This document shows positions 8,264 through 59,697 of a stretch of 64,000 bases of DNA, in pieces. Position 1 is the stretch's first letter; the number at the start of each line of letters is the position of its first letter. A program made the translations under genes and the position numbers. This DNA comes from Candidatus Thiothrix putei. Lineage in GTDB: Bacteria > Pseudomonadota > Gammaproteobacteria > Thiotrichales > Thiotrichaceae. The stretch is taken from assembly GCA_029972225.1 (NCBI GenBank), contig CP124756.1:1656001-1720000 (forward strand), read 5' to 3'. A model generated the notes under the pieces. It saw only the letters and a list, made by a program, of their open reading frames with translations. It ran no database searches and was not told where the DNA came from.

Positions 8264-8462
8264 GATTTGATAACCCTATGGTTTATAAAGGATAGTAGGC
8301 GTGATACCGTAAACGTTTCAATAAGAACCACACCTAATAGGTATTATACATAATAAATTTAAATTATTCAATTAATTTTATGTTAAATGACTAATGATTT
8401 ATGGCTTGAGTTTGATATGACACAATTTAAGTCGCTTCTTGCTCTTTTAGGAAACTTATACC

Positions 8463-8972
8463 TTACAGCGTCAAGACCTGAACATTTTTAAAGGTTTGAA
8501 AATTTGTTGTCATCAACTGGGTCAGTTCTTTCTTGTGATCGGTATCCAGCTTGTCGAGACAGTTGGTGATGGCCGCCTTGAAAGCGGGAAACTTATCATA
8601 GTATTTCGAGTACAAGCATTTTTTCTTGACGAACTTCCACAACCGTTCAATCAGATTGAGGTTGGGTGAATAGGTCGGTAAAAATAATAGTTCAATATTG
8701 AGCCTTTTCGCACAGGCAAACACGGCTTCACAGCGTTGATACTTGGCATTATCCAAGACCAAAGTGATCGGTATTTTGAGTGCTAACGCTGCAATTTTTT
8801 CCAATAATTCACACACGCTGTTAGCGTTGATATAGGAGTCGTTAGTGATCGTGATGAGTTGTAGCGTTATCGCATTGAGTGCGCCCAATACGTTGTAGCG
8901 TTGTCGACCACAGGGGGCTTTGATGAATACGCGGGAAAATGACCACAAAAACCCCAGAAACGGTGCTAACAC
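8463..8972 (-). CDS. IS630 transposase, catalytic (DDE) part, frame B
   Basis: This frame carries most of the DDE superfamily catalytic domain: FLGFLWSFSRVF, LVLDNAKYQRC with the second aspartate, and FLPTYSPNLNLIERLWKFVKK with the final acidic residue. The first catalytic aspartate (FFVDAAHF) lies upstream of the listed start and is reached only if ribosomes move from frame A to frame B at the seven-T run on the minus strand (8991-8997 on plus). The nominal start codon is therefore probably not used; expression is expected as an AB fusion. The frame ends inside the left terminal sequence of the element. Confidence 0.85.
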   Translation of the reverse strand: MLAPFLGFLWSFSRVFIKAPCGRQRYNVLGALNAITLQLITITNDSYINANSVCELLEKIAALALKIPITLVLDNAKYQRCEAVFACAKRLNIELLFLPTYSPNLNLIERLWKFVKKKCLYSKYYDKFPAFKAAITNCLDKLDTDHKKELTQLMTTNFQTFKNVQVLTL

Positions 8973-9511
8973 GAAGTGGGCGGCATCGACAAAAAAAGGG
9001 CGCGTTTGCCCTCCTTAGCCTCCTGAATGCGCGGTTTTAGTTCATTTTCCAGGAACTTTTCTTGTGCTTCCACATCAGCTTTGGCGGGTATCATCCCCAC
9101 TTTATGGATGTCCATCCCTATTTTCTTCATAAAGACACGTACCCTGTCCTCACTGCGTTTGATGCCTGTCAGCTCCTCAATCTTAGCGGCTGCCGCCTTG
9201 CTGGTTGCGGGGGGATATTCACGAAAATAGGCTTCAATCTTGTCTTTATATGCCATCAAATCACTCTGTGGTTTATTGAATCGTATTTCTTTAAGAGCTT
9301 CTAAACCGTTAGGTTGTAGGTAGGCGTTTAGGTAGGCAAGCAGCGTGGCTTCTGTAATCCTTTCCAATCGTTTGATTTCCTTATGCGTCAACTGTTGGGA
9401 TTTCAGGTACAGCACGGACATTTTCTTACGGACTCTGGGATGAGGATGGCGCTCCTTCCAGTAGAACAGCTCCGCTATCTCATCCTCAGTGAAAGTGATT
9501 TTTAATGTCAT
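8966..9511 (-). CDS. IS630 transposase, N-terminal DNA-binding part, frame A
   Basis: Contains the helix-turn-helix region of IS630 transposases (KEIKRLERITEATLLAYLN and the RSEDRVRVFMKKIGM segment) and the conserved VGMIPAKAD motif. It runs through EGKRALF and then leaves the family frame, ending as LSMPPTSC. At the CTTTTTTTG sequence a -1 shift would continue as FFVDAAHF into frame B, which is the usual organisation of this IS family. The start ATG lies about 83 bp inside the right end. Confidence 0.85.
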   Translation of the reverse strand: MTLKITFTEDEIAELFYWKERHPHPRVRKKMSVLYLKSQQLTHKEIKRLERITEATLLAYLNAYLQPNGLEALKEIRFNKPQSDLMAYKDKIEAYFREYPPATSKAAAAKIEELTGIKRSEDRVRVFMKKIGMDIHKVGMIPAKADVEAQEKFLENELKPRIQEAKEGKRALFLSMPPTSC

Positions 9512-9597
9512 ACATTACTCATGGCTGCTTTTGTTACCAGTCATCTAACCATATTTCCCTGATCAAAAAAACTATTTTATGGCACGGACTGGTATAC

Positions 9598-54066: not shown

Positions 54067-54342
54067 ATGGTTATGTTGGCACTATCAGAACGCATCAATC
54101 TACGCACTAATGCGGAAACCAAAAGCTTGTTGACGCGAGCCGCCTCTTTTCGTGGTTTGTCGTTGAGCAATTTTCTGTTGGAAGCTGCTCAAAAAATGGC
54201 GCAAGAAGTCTTGAAAGGGCAGGAGCAAATCCTGTTATCTGAACGGGATTGGGAGCGGTTTGCGCTGATTCTCGATGATGATTCTCCGCCAAATGCCAAA
54301 TTACAAAAAGCCATGAGCAAGTTTAAGGCTACCCAAGCATGA
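54067..54342 (+). CDS. tacA: DUF1778 antitoxin (TacA family)
   Basis: A 91-residue protein with an N-terminal ribbon-helix-helix DNA-binding domain (ERINLRTNAETKSLLTRAAS, FRGLSLSNFLLEAA) and a C-terminal toxin-binding tail (LLSERDWERFALILDDDSPP). DUF1778 antitoxins bind and neutralise GNAT toxins and autorepress the operon. A second ATG two codons downstream fits AGGAG spacing better (9 rather than 3 bases) and may be the true start. It overlaps the toxin by 4 bp. It follows an intergenic palindrome likely to be its operator. Confidence 0.9.
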   Translation: MVMLALSERINLRTNAETKSLLTRAASFRGLSLSNFLLEAAQKMAQEVLKGQEQILLSERDWERFALILDDDSPPNAKLQKAMSKFKATQA

Positions 54343-54839
54343 GCCGCTGGGTAATTGAACCGTTCCATAAGCATTCGGGGCGTGATGGGTTTGCCTGCGG
54401 CGAACCAGCGTTAGATGCTTATTTGGCAATATATGCAGGACAGCATGAGCAAGCGGGCGTTGCGCGAACATTTCTAGCCGTTGACCCACAAGATCAAGGC
54501 TTGGTGGGTTATTACAGCCTGAGCATGAGCAGTATCCCCCGTGATAATTTGCCGGATGCGTTGCACAAGCGGTTTCCGGCGTTTCCTATTCCGGTGGCAC
54601 GTTTGGTCAGGTTGGCGATTGATCGCAGCCGTCAAGGGCAAGGTGCAGGTGAATTTCTGTTCATGGATGCCTTGCAACGCTGCCATAAACTGGCCAAAGA
54701 AATCGGTATGGTGGCGGTGGTAGTGGATGCGAAACACGACAAAGCTGCGGCGTTTTACCGCCAATACGGGTTTGAAAGTTTGCCAGACCAGCCCTTGTTG
54801 TTGTGGTTGACGAGCAAGAAGCTGGGTAAATTGTTTTAA
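54339..54839 (+). CDS. tacT: GNAT-family toxin (TacT)
   Basis: A 166-residue N-acetyltransferase: GRDGFACGEPALDAYLAIYA (the conserved FxCGxxxLDxYL motif of TacT-type toxins), GLVGYYSLSMSSI, the acetyl-CoA loop DRSRQGQGAGEFLFMDAL (Q/RxxGxG/A), and VVVDAKHDKAAAFYRQYGF. TacT toxins acetylate the amino group of charged tRNAs and stop translation. Coupled to the antitoxin by an ATGA overlap. All motifs are intact, so the pair is likely functional. Confidence 0.92.
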   Translation: MSRWVIEPFHKHSGRDGFACGEPALDAYLAIYAGQHEQAGVARTFLAVDPQDQGLVGYYSLSMSSIPRDNLPDALHKRFPAFPIPVARLVRLAIDRSRQGQGAGEFLFMDALQRCHKLAKEIGMVAVVVDAKHDKAAAFYRQYGFESLPDQPLLLWLTSKKLGKLF

Positions 54840-54900: not shown

Positions 54901-55464
54901 TCAGCACTTCATGCTTTTGTTCGGGTAGAATCGGGGCATCGACAAAAAAAGGGCGCGTTTGCCCTCCTTAGCCTCCTGAATGCGCGGTTTTAGTTCATTT
55001 TCCAGGAACTTTTCTTGTGCTTTCACATCAGCTTTGGCGGGTATCATCCCCACTTTACGGATGTCCATCCCTATTTTCTTCATAAAGACACGTACCCTGT
55101 CCTCACTGCGTTTGATGCCTGTCAGCTCCTCAATCTTAGCGGCTGCCGCCTTGCTGGTTGCGGGGGGATATTCACGAAAATAGGCTTCAATCTTGTCTTT
55201 ATATGCCATCAAATCACTCTGTGGTTTATTGAATCGTATTTCTTTAAGAGCTTCTAAACCGTTAGGTTGTAGGTAGGCGTTTAGGTAGGCAAGCAGCGTG
55301 GCTTCTGTAATCCTTTCCAATCGTTTGATTTCCTTATGCGTCAACTGTTGGGATTTCAGGTACAGCACGGACATTTTCTTACGGACTCTGGGATGAGGAT
55401 GGCGCTCCTTCCAGTAGAACAGCTCCGCTATCTCATCCTCAGTGAAAGTGATTTTTAATGTCAT
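54901..55464 (-). pseudogene. Truncated IS630 transposase (frame A only)
   Basis: Matches frame A of copy A (VGMIPAKADVKAQ, RIQEAKEGKRALF) and then runs into unrelated sequence as RFYPNKSMKC. Without frame B there are no catalytic residues. It might still make a DNA-binding fragment. Confidence 0.85.
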
Positions 55465-55547
55465 ACATTACTCATGGCTGCTTTTGTTACCAGTCATCTA
55501 ACCATATTTCCCTGATCAAAAAAACTATTTTATGGCACGGACTGGTA
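54935..55547 (-). mobile_element. IS630 copy B, left-truncated remnant
   Basis: 613 bp nearly identical to the right part of copy A (8982-9594), ending with the same GGTA and TA. The left boundary is at GGCATCGAC, exactly at the frameshift region, so the whole catalytic part is missing. The T7 slippery run survives. It lies about 50 bp upstream of the Pho box of the betaine-lipid operon. Confidence 0.88.
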
Positions 55548-55598
55548 TAGCAGGTAAGCAAACAGGTTGCGCACAGGTACGCGAAACCCATAACACAA

Positions 55599-55627
55599 CG
55601 GTCATATAACCGTCATTTTGCCGTCAT
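55599..55627 (+). promoter_or_regulatory. Pho box: three direct repeats upstream of btaA
   Basis: CGGTCAT, CCGTCAT and CCGTCAT start at 55599, 55610 and 55621, an exact 11-bp period with 4-bp spacers (ATAA, TTTG). This is the PhoB-binding layout (CTGTCAT-N4-CTGTCAT), here with one repeat more than the minimum. It ends 51 bp before the btaA ATG, so the operon should be switched on by phosphate starvation. Confidence 0.85.
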
Positions 55628-55678
55628 TCCCAAGCCTTAGCCTCAAGCCCACGATTAGATTTTGTTAGCGAGAGTTTC

Positions 55679-56893
55679 ATGGCAGGTATTTCCGACGCAA
55701 TGCGCGATGCTGTGCATCAACATGCCCCCACGTCCTTGATGGGGATGCAGCAACGTTTGTTCAGCTTTTGGTTCAATAGCTTCATCTACAACCAGATTTG
55801 GGAAGACCCCACGGTGGATATGCAAACCTTGCAACTGACTTCGGAAAGCCGGGTGCTGACGATTGCTTCGGGCGGTTGTAACGTGTTGAATTACCTGACC
55901 GCAAGCCCCGCGCATATCACCGCGATTGACCTGAACCCCTACCATTTGTCCCTGACGCGCCTGAAACTGGCAGCGATGAAACATTTGCCGGATCACGCCA
56001 CCTTCTACGATTTCTTTGGTTACGCTGACCGCGACACCAATCCGGCGCATTACGAGCAATACATCCGCCCGCATTTGGATGATGCATTGGATGGATTCTG
56101 GCAAGGCCGCAGCATTTTGGGGCAAAAGCGCATTCATATGTTCCGTGACGGGCTGTATCGGCAAACGCGCTTCGGCTATTTCATGCGCTTCTTGCACTGG
56201 ATTGCTCGCCGCACCAATTACCACCCTGAAAAGCTCCTCACTGCCACCAGTTTGTACGAACAGAAAGCGATTTTTAACCAACACATCGCACCGTTTTTCG
56301 ACAATAAGTTGGTGAAGTTTTTGGGCAAATTGCCAATGTCGGTGTTCAGCCTTGGCATTCCGCCGCAGCAATATAAGGCGATGAAAGAGCAGGGCAATCT
56401 GATCGAGCAATACCGCGAGCGTGTCGAACGTTTGGCGTGTGATACCCCGATTCAGAACAATTATTTCGCATGGCAAGGTTTTAGCCACAGCTACGATCAC
56501 GAAAAGCGTCAGGCGATTCCTGATTACCTGAAAGCGGAAAATTACGACAATATCCGCCAGCAATTGGGCAAAGTGGATACGCACCTGGGCTCCATGATCG
56601 ACTTCCTTGAGCAGCAAGCTCCGCACAGTTACGACCGTTTCGTGTTCCTTGATGCGCAAGACTGGATGACGGATGAAGTCCTCACCCAGTTGTGGACGCA
56701 AGTTGCCCGCGTGGGCAAGCCGGGGACGCGGATTATCTTCCGTACCGCCGCCGCCGAATCACCGTTGGAAACCGCGTTGCCAGCCGAATTACGCAGCCAG
56801 TTTGTGTACGAAGCTGAAGCTTCCGCGCAACTGTTCCAGCAAGACCGTTCGGCGATTTACGGTGGTTTTCACCTCTACCGCAAGGCCGATTGA
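55679..56893 (+). CDS. btaA: S-adenosylmethionine:diacylglycerol 3-amino-3-carboxypropyltransferase
   Basis: A 404-residue DUF3419/BtaA-type enzyme: FNSFIYNQIWEDPTVDMQTL, VLTIASGGCNVLNYLT (SAM-binding), ITAIDLNPYHLSLTRLKLAA, and the later GLYRQTRFGYFMRFLHWIA and FVFLDAQDWMTDEVL are typical. It transfers the aminocarboxypropyl group from SAM to diacylglycerol, making diacylglycerylhomoserine, the first step to the betaine lipid DGTS, a phosphorus-free membrane lipid. A triple Pho box precedes it. The stop overlaps the region of the btaB start. btaA and btaB are separate genes here, as in Rhodobacter, not the fused eukaryotic form. Confidence 0.93.
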   Translation: MAGISDAMRDAVHQHAPTSLMGMQQRLFSFWFNSFIYNQIWEDPTVDMQTLQLTSESRVLTIASGGCNVLNYLTASPAHITAIDLNPYHLSLTRLKLAAMKHLPDHATFYDFFGYADRDTNPAHYEQYIRPHLDDALDGFWQGRSILGQKRIHMFRDGLYRQTRFGYFMRFLHWIARRTNYHPEKLLTATSLYEQKAIFNQHIAPFFDNKLVKFLGKLPMSVFSLGIPPQQYKAMKEQGNLIEQYRERVERLACDTPIQNNYFAWQGFSHSYDHEKRQAIPDYLKAENYDNIRQQLGKVDTHLGSMIDFLEQQAPHSYDRFVFLDAQDWMTDEVLTQLWTQVARVGKPGTRIIFRTAAAESPLETALPAELRSQFVYEAEASAQLFQQDRSAIYGGFHLYRKAD

Positions 56894-56895
56894 CG

Positions 56896-57594
56896 ATGGA
56901 TGCCGCACAGAAAATGGATCAGCAGTACCGTTACCAGCGGTACGTTTACGACTGGTCGCGCAAGTATTATTTGTTGGGGCGCGATGCCTTGCTGGCGGAA
57001 ATCCCGTTGCAGTCGGGCGAAACCTTGCTGGAAATCGGCTGTGGCACGGGGCGTAATTTAACCAAGTTGGCTTATCGCCATCCGCACGCCAAACTTTACG
57101 GTATGGATGCGTCGGCGATGATGCTCGATACTGCCCGTGACAATTTGCGTAACACTTTGTATGCGCAACAAATTACTTTGCAGCAAGGCTTGGCGGGGCA
57201 GGTTGATCACACCACCTTCGGGCTGGAAAAACCGTTTGATCATATTGTGTTTTCGTATGTGCTGTCGATGATCCCCAGTTGGCAGGATGCGTTGGAACAT
57301 GCCTTGAGCATCCTCAAACCCGGTGGTTGTTTGCACGTGGTGGATTTTTCCGACCAGCAAACCATGCCTACCTGGTTTCGCAAGCTGCTGTTGCAGTGGC
57401 TGGATTGGTTCAATGTCCACCCTGATCCGGCAGTCCCGGCGTATTTGGAGCAAATGGCAGCCCGTCATCACGACCAATTGCGTATTCGTCACCTGAGTGG
57501 GCGTTACGCAGTGCTTGCGCATTACCAGAAAGGGGGGATTCCCAATGACCATCAACCAGAACTTCCGCAAATATCGCAGTATCTGGATTTCTGA
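56896..57594 (+). CDS. btaB: Diacylglycerylhomoserine N-methyltransferase
   Basis: A 232-residue class I methyltransferase: YVYDWSRKYYLLGRDALLAE at the N-terminus, ETLLEIGCGTGRNLTKLA (SAM-binding), LYGMDASAMMLDTAR and LSMIPSWQDALEHAL with PGGCLHVVDFSDQ. It should methylate the homoserine head group three times to give DGTS. The ATG at 56896 is used; a TTG two codons earlier overlaps the btaA stop. The downstream gene starts inside its 3' end (50-bp overlap), tying the three genes in one operon. Confidence 0.9.
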   Translation: MDAAQKMDQQYRYQRYVYDWSRKYYLLGRDALLAEIPLQSGETLLEIGCGTGRNLTKLAYRHPHAKLYGMDASAMMLDTARDNLRNTLYAQQITLQQGLAGQVDHTTFGLEKPFDHIVFSYVLSMIPSWQDALEHALSILKPGGCLHVVDFSDQQTMPTWFRKLLLQWLDWFNVHPDPAVPAYLEQMAARHHDQLRIRHLSGRYAVLAHYQKGGIPNDHQPELPQISQYLDF

Positions 57595-58354
57595 TACGCA
57601 CCTCGGTTCGCGCGGGTGCAAAGCCGAGTTTCTGCTCGATTTCCTGCAACACAATCAAGCCGATCATTTGTATCTGGTCGGCGATATTATCGACGGCTGG
57701 GCATTACGCAAACGCTGGTATTGGGATACGTTCCACGACCAGATTTTGCACTTGCTGTTTGAACGGGCGCAACGCGGGTCGCAAGTGACCTACGTCAGCG
57801 GCAATCATGATGAGTTTTTGCGTCCATTTATCCATCACCGCATTACCGCGATCAGTTTGGAAGACGAGGTGGTGCATACCACCGCTGATGGGCGCAAGTT
57901 TTTGGTGCTGCACGGCGACCAGTTTGATGGCGTGATGCAGTTTGCGCGGTGGCTGGCAATCTTGGGTGATTGGATTTACGAGCGTTTGCTGGTGGTGAAT
58001 AATGTGTACAACCGGCTGCGGCGGCGCATGGGTTATCCGTATTGGTCACTCTCGGCTTACCTCAAGCACAAAACCAAGTCGGCGGTGAATTTCATCTCGG
58101 CATTCGAGGAAACGCTGGCGAAAGAAGCGAAAAAGCGTCAGTTGGATGGGATTATTTGCGGGCATATTCACCATGCCGAAATCCGCGAGATTGACGGGGT
58201 ATTGTATTGCAATGATGGCGATTGGGTAGAAAGTTGCACCGCACTGGTGGAAGAGTGGGATGGGAGTTTGCACGTGGTGCGCTGGACAGAAGCTAAAAAT
58301 GCCGCTGTGGAAGTATGCTTGCCCAGCGTAACGCCTGAACCGTTAGCTGCTTAA
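57545..58354 (+). CDS. plcP: PlcP-type phospholipase C (metallophosphoesterase, LpxH-like)
   Basis: A 269-residue calcineurin-like phosphoesterase with all metal-binding motifs: WISDTHLGSRG, LVGDIIDGWAL, YVSGNHDEFLR, LHGDQFDGV and ICGHIHHAEI. General annotation would be UDP-2,3-diacylglucosamine diphosphatase, but its place after btaAB matches PlcP, the phospholipase that cuts phosphatidylglycerol or phosphatidylethanolamine to diacylglycerol for phosphorus-free lipid synthesis. GGGGGG lies 7 bases before the chosen ATG; the longer frame into btaB is not used. The Pho box upstream of btaA should control all three. PlcP versus LpxH is inferred from context. Confidence 0.82.
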   Translation: MTINQNFRKYRSIWISDTHLGSRGCKAEFLLDFLQHNQADHLYLVGDIIDGWALRKRWYWDTFHDQILHLLFERAQRGSQVTYVSGNHDEFLRPFIHHRITAISLEDEVVHTTADGRKFLVLHGDQFDGVMQFARWLAILGDWIYERLLVVNNVYNRLRRRMGYPYWSLSAYLKHKTKSAVNFISAFEETLAKEAKKRQLDGIICGHIHHAEIREIDGVLYCNDGDWVESCTALVEEWDGSLHVVRWTEAKNAAVEVCLPSVTPEPLAA

Positions 58355-58472: not shown

Positions 58473-59516
58473 TTACTTCAGTGCGTTTACTGACACTGGC
58501 TTCAGTGCGTTAGCAGCAGCAACTGTTTCAGCTTTTTGGCTATCCGGTAATGCAACCAGACCTTTGTCAGCCAAGTAGCCGTCTTTGCTCAGCGCTTCTT
58601 CGCTAGTGAATTCAGCGATGAATTCTTTGATACCAGGTACTTGACCAACGTGGCTGTTTTTCACGTAGAAGAACAGTGGGCGTGACAGTGGGTAAGCACC
58701 GCTAGAGATGTTCTCGTAGCTGATTTCTTTGCCGTCGATAGTGGCAGCTTTCAGGGAGTCCATGTTTTGCTCAAGGAAGCTGTAACCGAAGATGCCGACT
58801 GCATCACGGTTAGCTTGCAGCTTTTGTACGATCAGGTTGTCATTTTCGCCCGCTTCGATGTAGTGACCGTCTTCACGCACGGTGGTGCAAGCGGCTTTGA
58901 ATGCTTTCTCGTCTTTCTTTTTCAGCTCTGGCATACCTTGGAACAACAGGCAACCTTTTTCCATGCCCAGTTCAGCCAATGCGTCACGTGTGCCAGATGT
59001 AGGTGGCGGGCCCATGACTTCGATTTTCACGTCAGCCATGTCGGGGTTGATTTGCTTCCAAGTGGTGTAAGTGTTGGGTTGCAATTCACCGTTAGGGCCA
59101 GTTGGAACGTCTTTTGCCAGTGCCAGATACAGTTCGCGGCGAGACAGTTTGACGGGTGCAGCATCCTTGGCTTGAGCTACAGCGATACCGTCGAAGCCGA
59201 TTTTGACTTCAGTGACTTCGTTAACGCCGTTTTTGATGCAGCTTTCCATCTCGCTCTTTTTCATGCGGCGGGAAGCGTTGGTGATGTCTGGGGTTTCAAT
59301 GCCAGCGCCTGAACAGAACAATTTCATACCGCCGCCAGTGCCGGTGGATTCAACCTTAGGAGCAGCCATGCCTGTTTTCTTGGCAAACTGTTCAGCAACA
59401 GCCGTCGAGAAAGGGTATACAGTAGAGGAGCCAACGATTTCGATATTATCGCGTGCTTGTGCAACGCCAGAGGCAGCAACCAAGCCCAGTACAACTGCCA
59501 GAGTGAGTTTTTTCAT
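58473..59516 (-). CDS. pstS: Phosphate ABC transporter substrate-binding protein
   Basis: A 347-residue periplasmic binding protein with a Sec signal peptide (MKKLTLAVVLGLVAASGVAQA) and the PstS motifs IVGSSTVYPFSTAVAEQFAK, GTGGGMKLFCSGAGIETPDI, SRRMKKSEMESC and PPPTSGTRDALAELG, where the serine/threonine residues grip phosphate. It captures phosphate for PstABC, which are not adjacent. It converges on the betaine-lipid operon, so phosphate uptake and phospholipid replacement sit side by side. No convincing Pho box was found in the 118 bp upstream. Confidence 0.93.
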   Translation of the reverse strand: MKKLTLAVVLGLVAASGVAQARDNIEIVGSSTVYPFSTAVAEQFAKKTGMAAPKVESTGTGGGMKLFCSGAGIETPDITNASRRMKKSEMESCIKNGVNEVTEVKIGFDGIAVAQAKDAAPVKLSRRELYLALAKDVPTGPNGELQPNTYTTWKQINPDMADVKIEVMGPPPTSGTRDALAELGMEKGCLLFQGMPELKKKDEKAFKAACTTVREDGHYIEAGENDNLIVQKLQANRDAVGIFGYSFLEQNMDSLKAATIDGKEISYENISSGAYPLSRPLFFYVKNSHVGQVPGIKEFIAEFTSEEALSKDGYLADKGLVALPDSQKAETVAAANALKPVSVNALK

Positions 59517-59697
59517 TGCGAGTTTCCTTCAAACAAAAAGAATCCAAGGCGGATTTGCGCGAATCTTAAGGGGTATTCAATGAAGGTTTTATGGCAGATA
59601 TATTAAGAAAGGATGACAACGACTGTTTGCTCAGGTGTCATCAAGCTGCAATAACGGCGGCGTAGCATGGGTAAACCCCCAAAATGGAATCAAGCCA

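Follow-up and report, generated by a model that had tools for sequence, protein, structure and literature searches.

Gene clusters that encode PlcP together with BtaA and BtaB and carry Pho boxes were described in 2015 in marine bacteria including Phaeobacter sp. MED193, and lipid data back remodelling to betaine lipid by systems of this type (PMC4796936). PlcP-Agt systems are also known, with Pho boxes in Pseudomonas aeruginosa (PMC8528852) and with ornithine lipids in Methylosinus (PMC9239053). The Pho box is laid out as an 11-bp direct repeat, CTGTCATNNNNCTGTCAT (quoted in PMC8528852). Our literature search found nothing on betaine lipids in Thiothrix, and a broader search on polar lipids likewise gave nothing useful.

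Here we analysed a window of 64,000 nucleotides (the whole stretch of DNA under study) from the genome of Candidatus Thiothrix putei. It contains a btaA-btaB-plcP operon, which, judged from its sequence, is very likely a Pho-regulated lipid-remodelling operon. The features of the locus are given below in window positions.

54935-55549, minus strand: truncated copy of an IS630-family element upstream of btaA, 99.7% identical to a copy beside olsB at 2.89 Mb of the genome
55599-55627, plus strand: Pho-box-like direct repeat of three units, (CG/CC)GTCAT x3, with a period of 11 bp, identified by its repeat structure, uniqueness and conservation
55638-55643, plus strand: candidate -10 element TAGCCT, read from the sequence, 10 bp past the last repeat unit
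55679-56893, plus strand: btaA, 404 aa, PF11899/DUF3419, by open reading frame and family match
56896-57594, plus strand: btaB, S-adenosylmethionine (SAM) methyltransferase of 232 aa, by open reading frame and homology
57545-58354, plus strand: plcP, metallophosphoesterase of 269 aa with a GNHD motif, sharing 50 bp with the end of btaB
58473-59516, minus strand: pstS, phosphate-binding protein of 347 aa, convergent with the operon
59580-59617, minus strand: Pho-box-like array of four units (GTCAT/TTAAT/GCCAT/TTCAT) with a period of 11 bp, upstream of pstS

The operon and the repeat array upstream of btaA

The original prediction placed a triple GTCAT repeat with an exact 11-bp period ahead of btaA, followed by btaA, btaB and a metallophosphoesterase gene in this order, with pstS facing the operon. 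All of these elements were confirmed. The array of pstS, the ancestral linkage with olsB-pst-phoBR and a probably redundant supply of diacylglycerol, which are treated below, go beyond that prediction. The GTCAT units occupy positions 55601-55605, 55612-55616 and 55623-55627, and the ATG of btaA lies 56 bp past the start of the third unit. The gene order was borne out by open reading frames and homology, and pstS is indeed convergent with the operon.

BtaA matches PF11899 over its full length (351 bits, residues 29-402) and has a btaB-type methyltransferase gene next to it. BtaB is 43% identical to the methyltransferase encoded beside S. meliloti btaA. These matches support the identities of both proteins. 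The btaA gene was found in all of the 16 genus genomes, and in only 4 of 47 genomes of the order outside the genus. Among the best 80 BtaA relatives, those outside Thiotrichales were nearly all alphaproteobacterial, with identities of 43-48%. The btaA-btaB-plcP order was also found in Leucothrix and one relative.

The array upstream of btaA consists of three direct repeats of the CTGTCAT type with an 11-bp period, the arrangement of a Pho promoter. Its units read (C/G)GTCAT, and the T of CTGTCAT is missing. In the whole 4.28-Mb genome, this three-unit pattern occurred only once, and all other sites carried two mismatches. Within the 150 bp upstream of btaA the best triple score was 15/15, a value that did not come up in 2000 Markov shuffles. 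When 13 lineages were added together, the period of 11 bp totalled 169, compared with 108-123 for periods of 8-10 and 12-14 bp. The 11-bp phase was preserved across the genus and its sister genera, with some units changed to GTCAC, GTAAC or ATCAT, whereas several species differ from one another in the DNA around the array. A similar array is present in Leucothrix. In most of the relatives a TANNNT hexamer lies 10 bp past the last unit, and it is plausible that the hexamer serves as the -10 element, with the array replacing the -35 element.

The relaxed two-unit pattern GTCAY-N6-GTCAY showed no genome-wide enrichment (28 matches versus 69 for the reversed control). Genome-wide two-unit matches were dropped as regulon evidence, since their count was not above the control, and the evidential weight is thus on the triple and its conservation.

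Two side observations concern other loci. At 54067-54839 of the window, a gene for a TacA1-type antitoxin is followed by a gene for a GNAT acetyltransferase, which resembles a TacA-TacT toxin-antitoxin pair. Repeated TTTCTAAGCCACCAATACGGCGGTTAAT units, looking like a CRISPR array, were seen near position 1782110 of the genome.

Identity of the phosphoesterase and supply of diacylglycerol

PlcP and LpxH belong to one superfamily, so that similarity of fold would be of little use in telling one from the other. Against the LpxH models, the phosphoesterase scored 43.5 bits (cut-off 190 bits, TIGR01854) and 47.6 bits (cut-off 134 bits, NF003743), far under the curated cut-offs. A separate true LpxH, with GNRD and 279 bits against the cut-off of 190, is encoded elsewhere in the genome. 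The metallophosphoesterase motifs expected of PlcP are all present in the protein: D-x-H (DTHL), GD (GDIIDGW), GNHD, H-G-D (LHGD) and GHxH (GHIH). All PlcP-type proteins examined carried GNHD, whereas all four LpxH proteins carried GNRD. In a tree of 27 proteins, the phosphoesterase fell on the PlcP side with the S. meliloti and P. aeruginosa homologues. The split from LpxH had a support of 96, but the branch is very long, and the tree should be read for this separation only. The gene of the S. meliloti protein in the tree lies beside genes for a LuxR-type regulator and an acyl-homoserine-lactone synthase, a neighbourhood that we take to be that of SMc00171. The gene of the P. aeruginosa protein is followed by a glycosyltransferase gene, as in PA3219-PA3218. 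The Thiothrix protein is 57.5% identical to a copy encoded on a P. aeruginosa plasmid ahead of a glycosyltransferase gene.

The phosphoesterase might still be an LpxH of lipid A synthesis that came to lie beside btaAB by chance. Public records of its homologues bear the name LpxH, the solved structures of its sequence relatives are LpxH only, and weak matches to the LpxH models (43-48 bits) do exist. However, we rejected this identity on the score, the motif, the tree and the second LpxH gene, and consider it extremely improbable. The original prediction of a PlcP-type enzyme thus held: the protein groups with PlcP rather than LpxH, and the genome has another lpxH. Its clade, the GNHD motif and the separate LpxH support the assignment as PlcP, for which phospholipid hydrolysis is predicted.

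Plasmid records of PlcP-type proteins are annotated as UDP-2,3-diacylglucosamine diphosphatase (LpxH), and those that we read have GNHD, not GNRD. Since LpxH proteins have GNRD and PlcP proteins GNHD, this motif would be of use in correcting the misannotation of many public records.

The plcP gene was kept in the operon in 14 of the 16 genus genomes, as well as in Leucothrix and one relative. It is absent in G003 and deleted in G006, and btaAB remain intact in both, so the btaA-btaB-plcP trio is not obligatory. In G006, an 18-residue plcP match was rejected as a gene stump. Most of it lies within the btaB-plcP overlap, and it shows only that plcP was removed after btaB. In G003, genes for a GT4 glycosyltransferase and a PAP2 protein follow btaAB in the place of plcP. 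All 16 genomes have a PAP2 gene, which is broken in one of them.

These losses suggest that the supply of diacylglycerol may be redundant, with PAP2 as a second source. The betaine lipid could then be made mostly from diacylglycerol of another origin, for example from the PAP2 protein encoded beside a Pho-box-linked GT4 gene, with PlcP as an auxiliary enzyme. The gene content of G003 and G006 and the wide presence of PAP2 fit this explanation, as does the P. aeruginosa plcP mutant, which still made some GADG (PMC8528852). Retention of plcP in most of the operons speaks against it. The substrate of PAP2 is also uncertain, because its best match was an undecaprenyl-diphosphatase model, below the cut-off. 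We therefore hold an auxiliary role to be rather unlikely, and PlcP is probably the main, not the sole, source of diacylglycerol. The natural plcP losses make the origin of diacylglycerol directly testable.

Three CDP-alcohol phosphotransferases were found in the genome, two of them PgsA-like and one PssA-like, which makes phosphatidylcholine synthesis through the Pcs route unlikely.

The phosphate island and its split

The genome encodes PstC, PstA, PstB, PhoU, PhoB and PhoR as one run after an OlsB-like gene with a Pho-like array (genome positions 2890500-2901000). PhoB and PhoR both scored above their cut-offs. The OlsB-like protein matched L-ornithine N-acyltransferase models best, at 168 of the 350 bits of the NCBIfam equivalog cut-off, and the OlsA candidate reached 148 of 300 bits. 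Both are under the equivalog cut-offs, so we name them OlsB-like and OlsA-like only. The OlsA-like acyltransferase gene and a second pstS are divergently oriented (genome positions about 1886100-1888300), and this pstS has a Pho-like site of two units. A Pho array was looked for upstream of the OlsA candidate and was not found.

In five relatives (G001, G004, G012, G014 and G015), pstS is convergent with plcP-btaB-btaA, and plcP-btaB-btaA is in turn divergent from olsB-pstC-pstA-pstB-phoU. Next come phoB and phoR, wherever the sequence examined was long enough to include them. The island of G006 shows this order with plcP missing, and the divergent btaA|olsB pair is retained in G003, G008 and G010. 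The btaA|olsB intergenic region of the relatives contains two arrays in opposite orientations.

In the T. putei genome this island is in two parts, with the btaA half at 1.71 Mb and the olsB half at 2.89 Mb. IS630-family copies adjoin both halves and are 99.7% identical over 615 bp, which suggests an IS-associated rearrangement. The truncated copy upstream of btaA probably marks the event that split the ancestral island. Within the window, the same element is present as a full-length copy (8457-9596) and the truncated one (54935-55549), which are also 99.7% identical.

The four-unit array upstream of pstS was recognisable at 13 loci in the genus, and shorter Pho-like arrays were found upstream of olsB, the second pstS and a GT4 glycosyltransferase gene. 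The betaine lipid could nevertheless be constitutive or respond to another signal, with the GTCAT repeats bound by a different OmpR/PhoB-type regulator. The genome encodes many such response regulators, including two PhoB-class proteins over the cut-off, and the lack of two-unit enrichment described above would agree with this. However, the same type of array precedes pstS, olsB and the second pstS, and Pho boxes have been described with just this layout of direct repeats every 11 bp (PMC8528852). In the relatives, moreover, phoBR belong to the same island as the operon. Control by another regulator or signal is thus unlikely, and we retain PhoB as the predicted regulator.

The second PhoB-class regulator (335 bits, over the cut-off) is encoded between two GT4 glycosyltransferase genes at genome positions 2081000-2085500. 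The second of these GT4 genes has a two-unit Pho-like site before it and a PAP2 gene behind it, forming a candidate glycolipid unit.

Predicted response and comparison with known systems

Under Pho control, low phosphate would lead PhoR to phosphorylate PhoB. PhoB would then bind the three-unit array in place of a -35 element and turn on btaA-btaB-plcP. PlcP is expected to convert membrane phospholipids, likely phosphatidylethanolamine (PE) and phosphatidylglycerol (PG), into diacylglycerol. BtaA would transfer the aminocarboxypropyl group of S-adenosylmethionine to diacylglycerol, and three methylations of its product by BtaB would give the betaine lipid DGTS. In this way, membrane phosphate would be released and the bilayer retained. 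Phosphate uptake would rise simultaneously through pstS under its own array. Since the module and olsB-pstCAB-phoU-phoBR formed one ancestral island, this response probably includes the synthesis of ornithine lipids.

A broader scheme, to which we give about an even chance, is that the Pho-controlled island of Thiothrix couples phosphate uptake and PhoB/PhoR to both a betaine-lipid pathway (btaAB-plcP) and an ornithine-lipid pathway (the divergent olsB). Glycolipids could come from the further Pho-box-linked glycosyltransferase-PAP2 unit, which could also provide diacylglycerol in genomes that have lost plcP, and the Pcs route is probably missing, so PlcP would act on PE and PG.

PlcP-BtaAB lipid remodelling would thus be extended to Thiothrix, which are filamentous sulfur-oxidising bacteria. 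If this is true, algae or alphaproteobacteria need not be the source when sulfidic mats or activated sludge contain betaine lipids.

The closest described system is the Type 1 plcP cluster of Phaeobacter sp. MED193 and other marine bacteria, which likewise combines the PlcP, BtaA and BtaB genes with Pho boxes (PMC4796936). In that cluster btaA and btaB are downstream of plcP, whereas plcP comes last in Thiothrix. The Thiothrix locus also differs in its gammaproteobacterial host, in the pstS facing the operon, and in the olsB-pst-phoBR genes adjacent to it in the relatives. The plcP-agt1 pair of P. aeruginosa (PA3219-PA3218) resembles it in the PlcP homologue, the Pho box control, the parallel ornithine lipids and the PE/PG membranes, but its surrogate lipids are glycolipids, not betaine lipids (PMC8528852). 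The S. meliloti proteins are 41% (BtaA), 43% (BtaB) and 47% (PlcP) identical to those of Thiothrix, but plcP is far from btaAB in S. meliloti and together with them in Thiothrix. In conclusion, PlcP-BtaAB under Pho boxes is already known, and what is less expected is that the operon is linked with olsB, pst and phoBR in Thiothrix.
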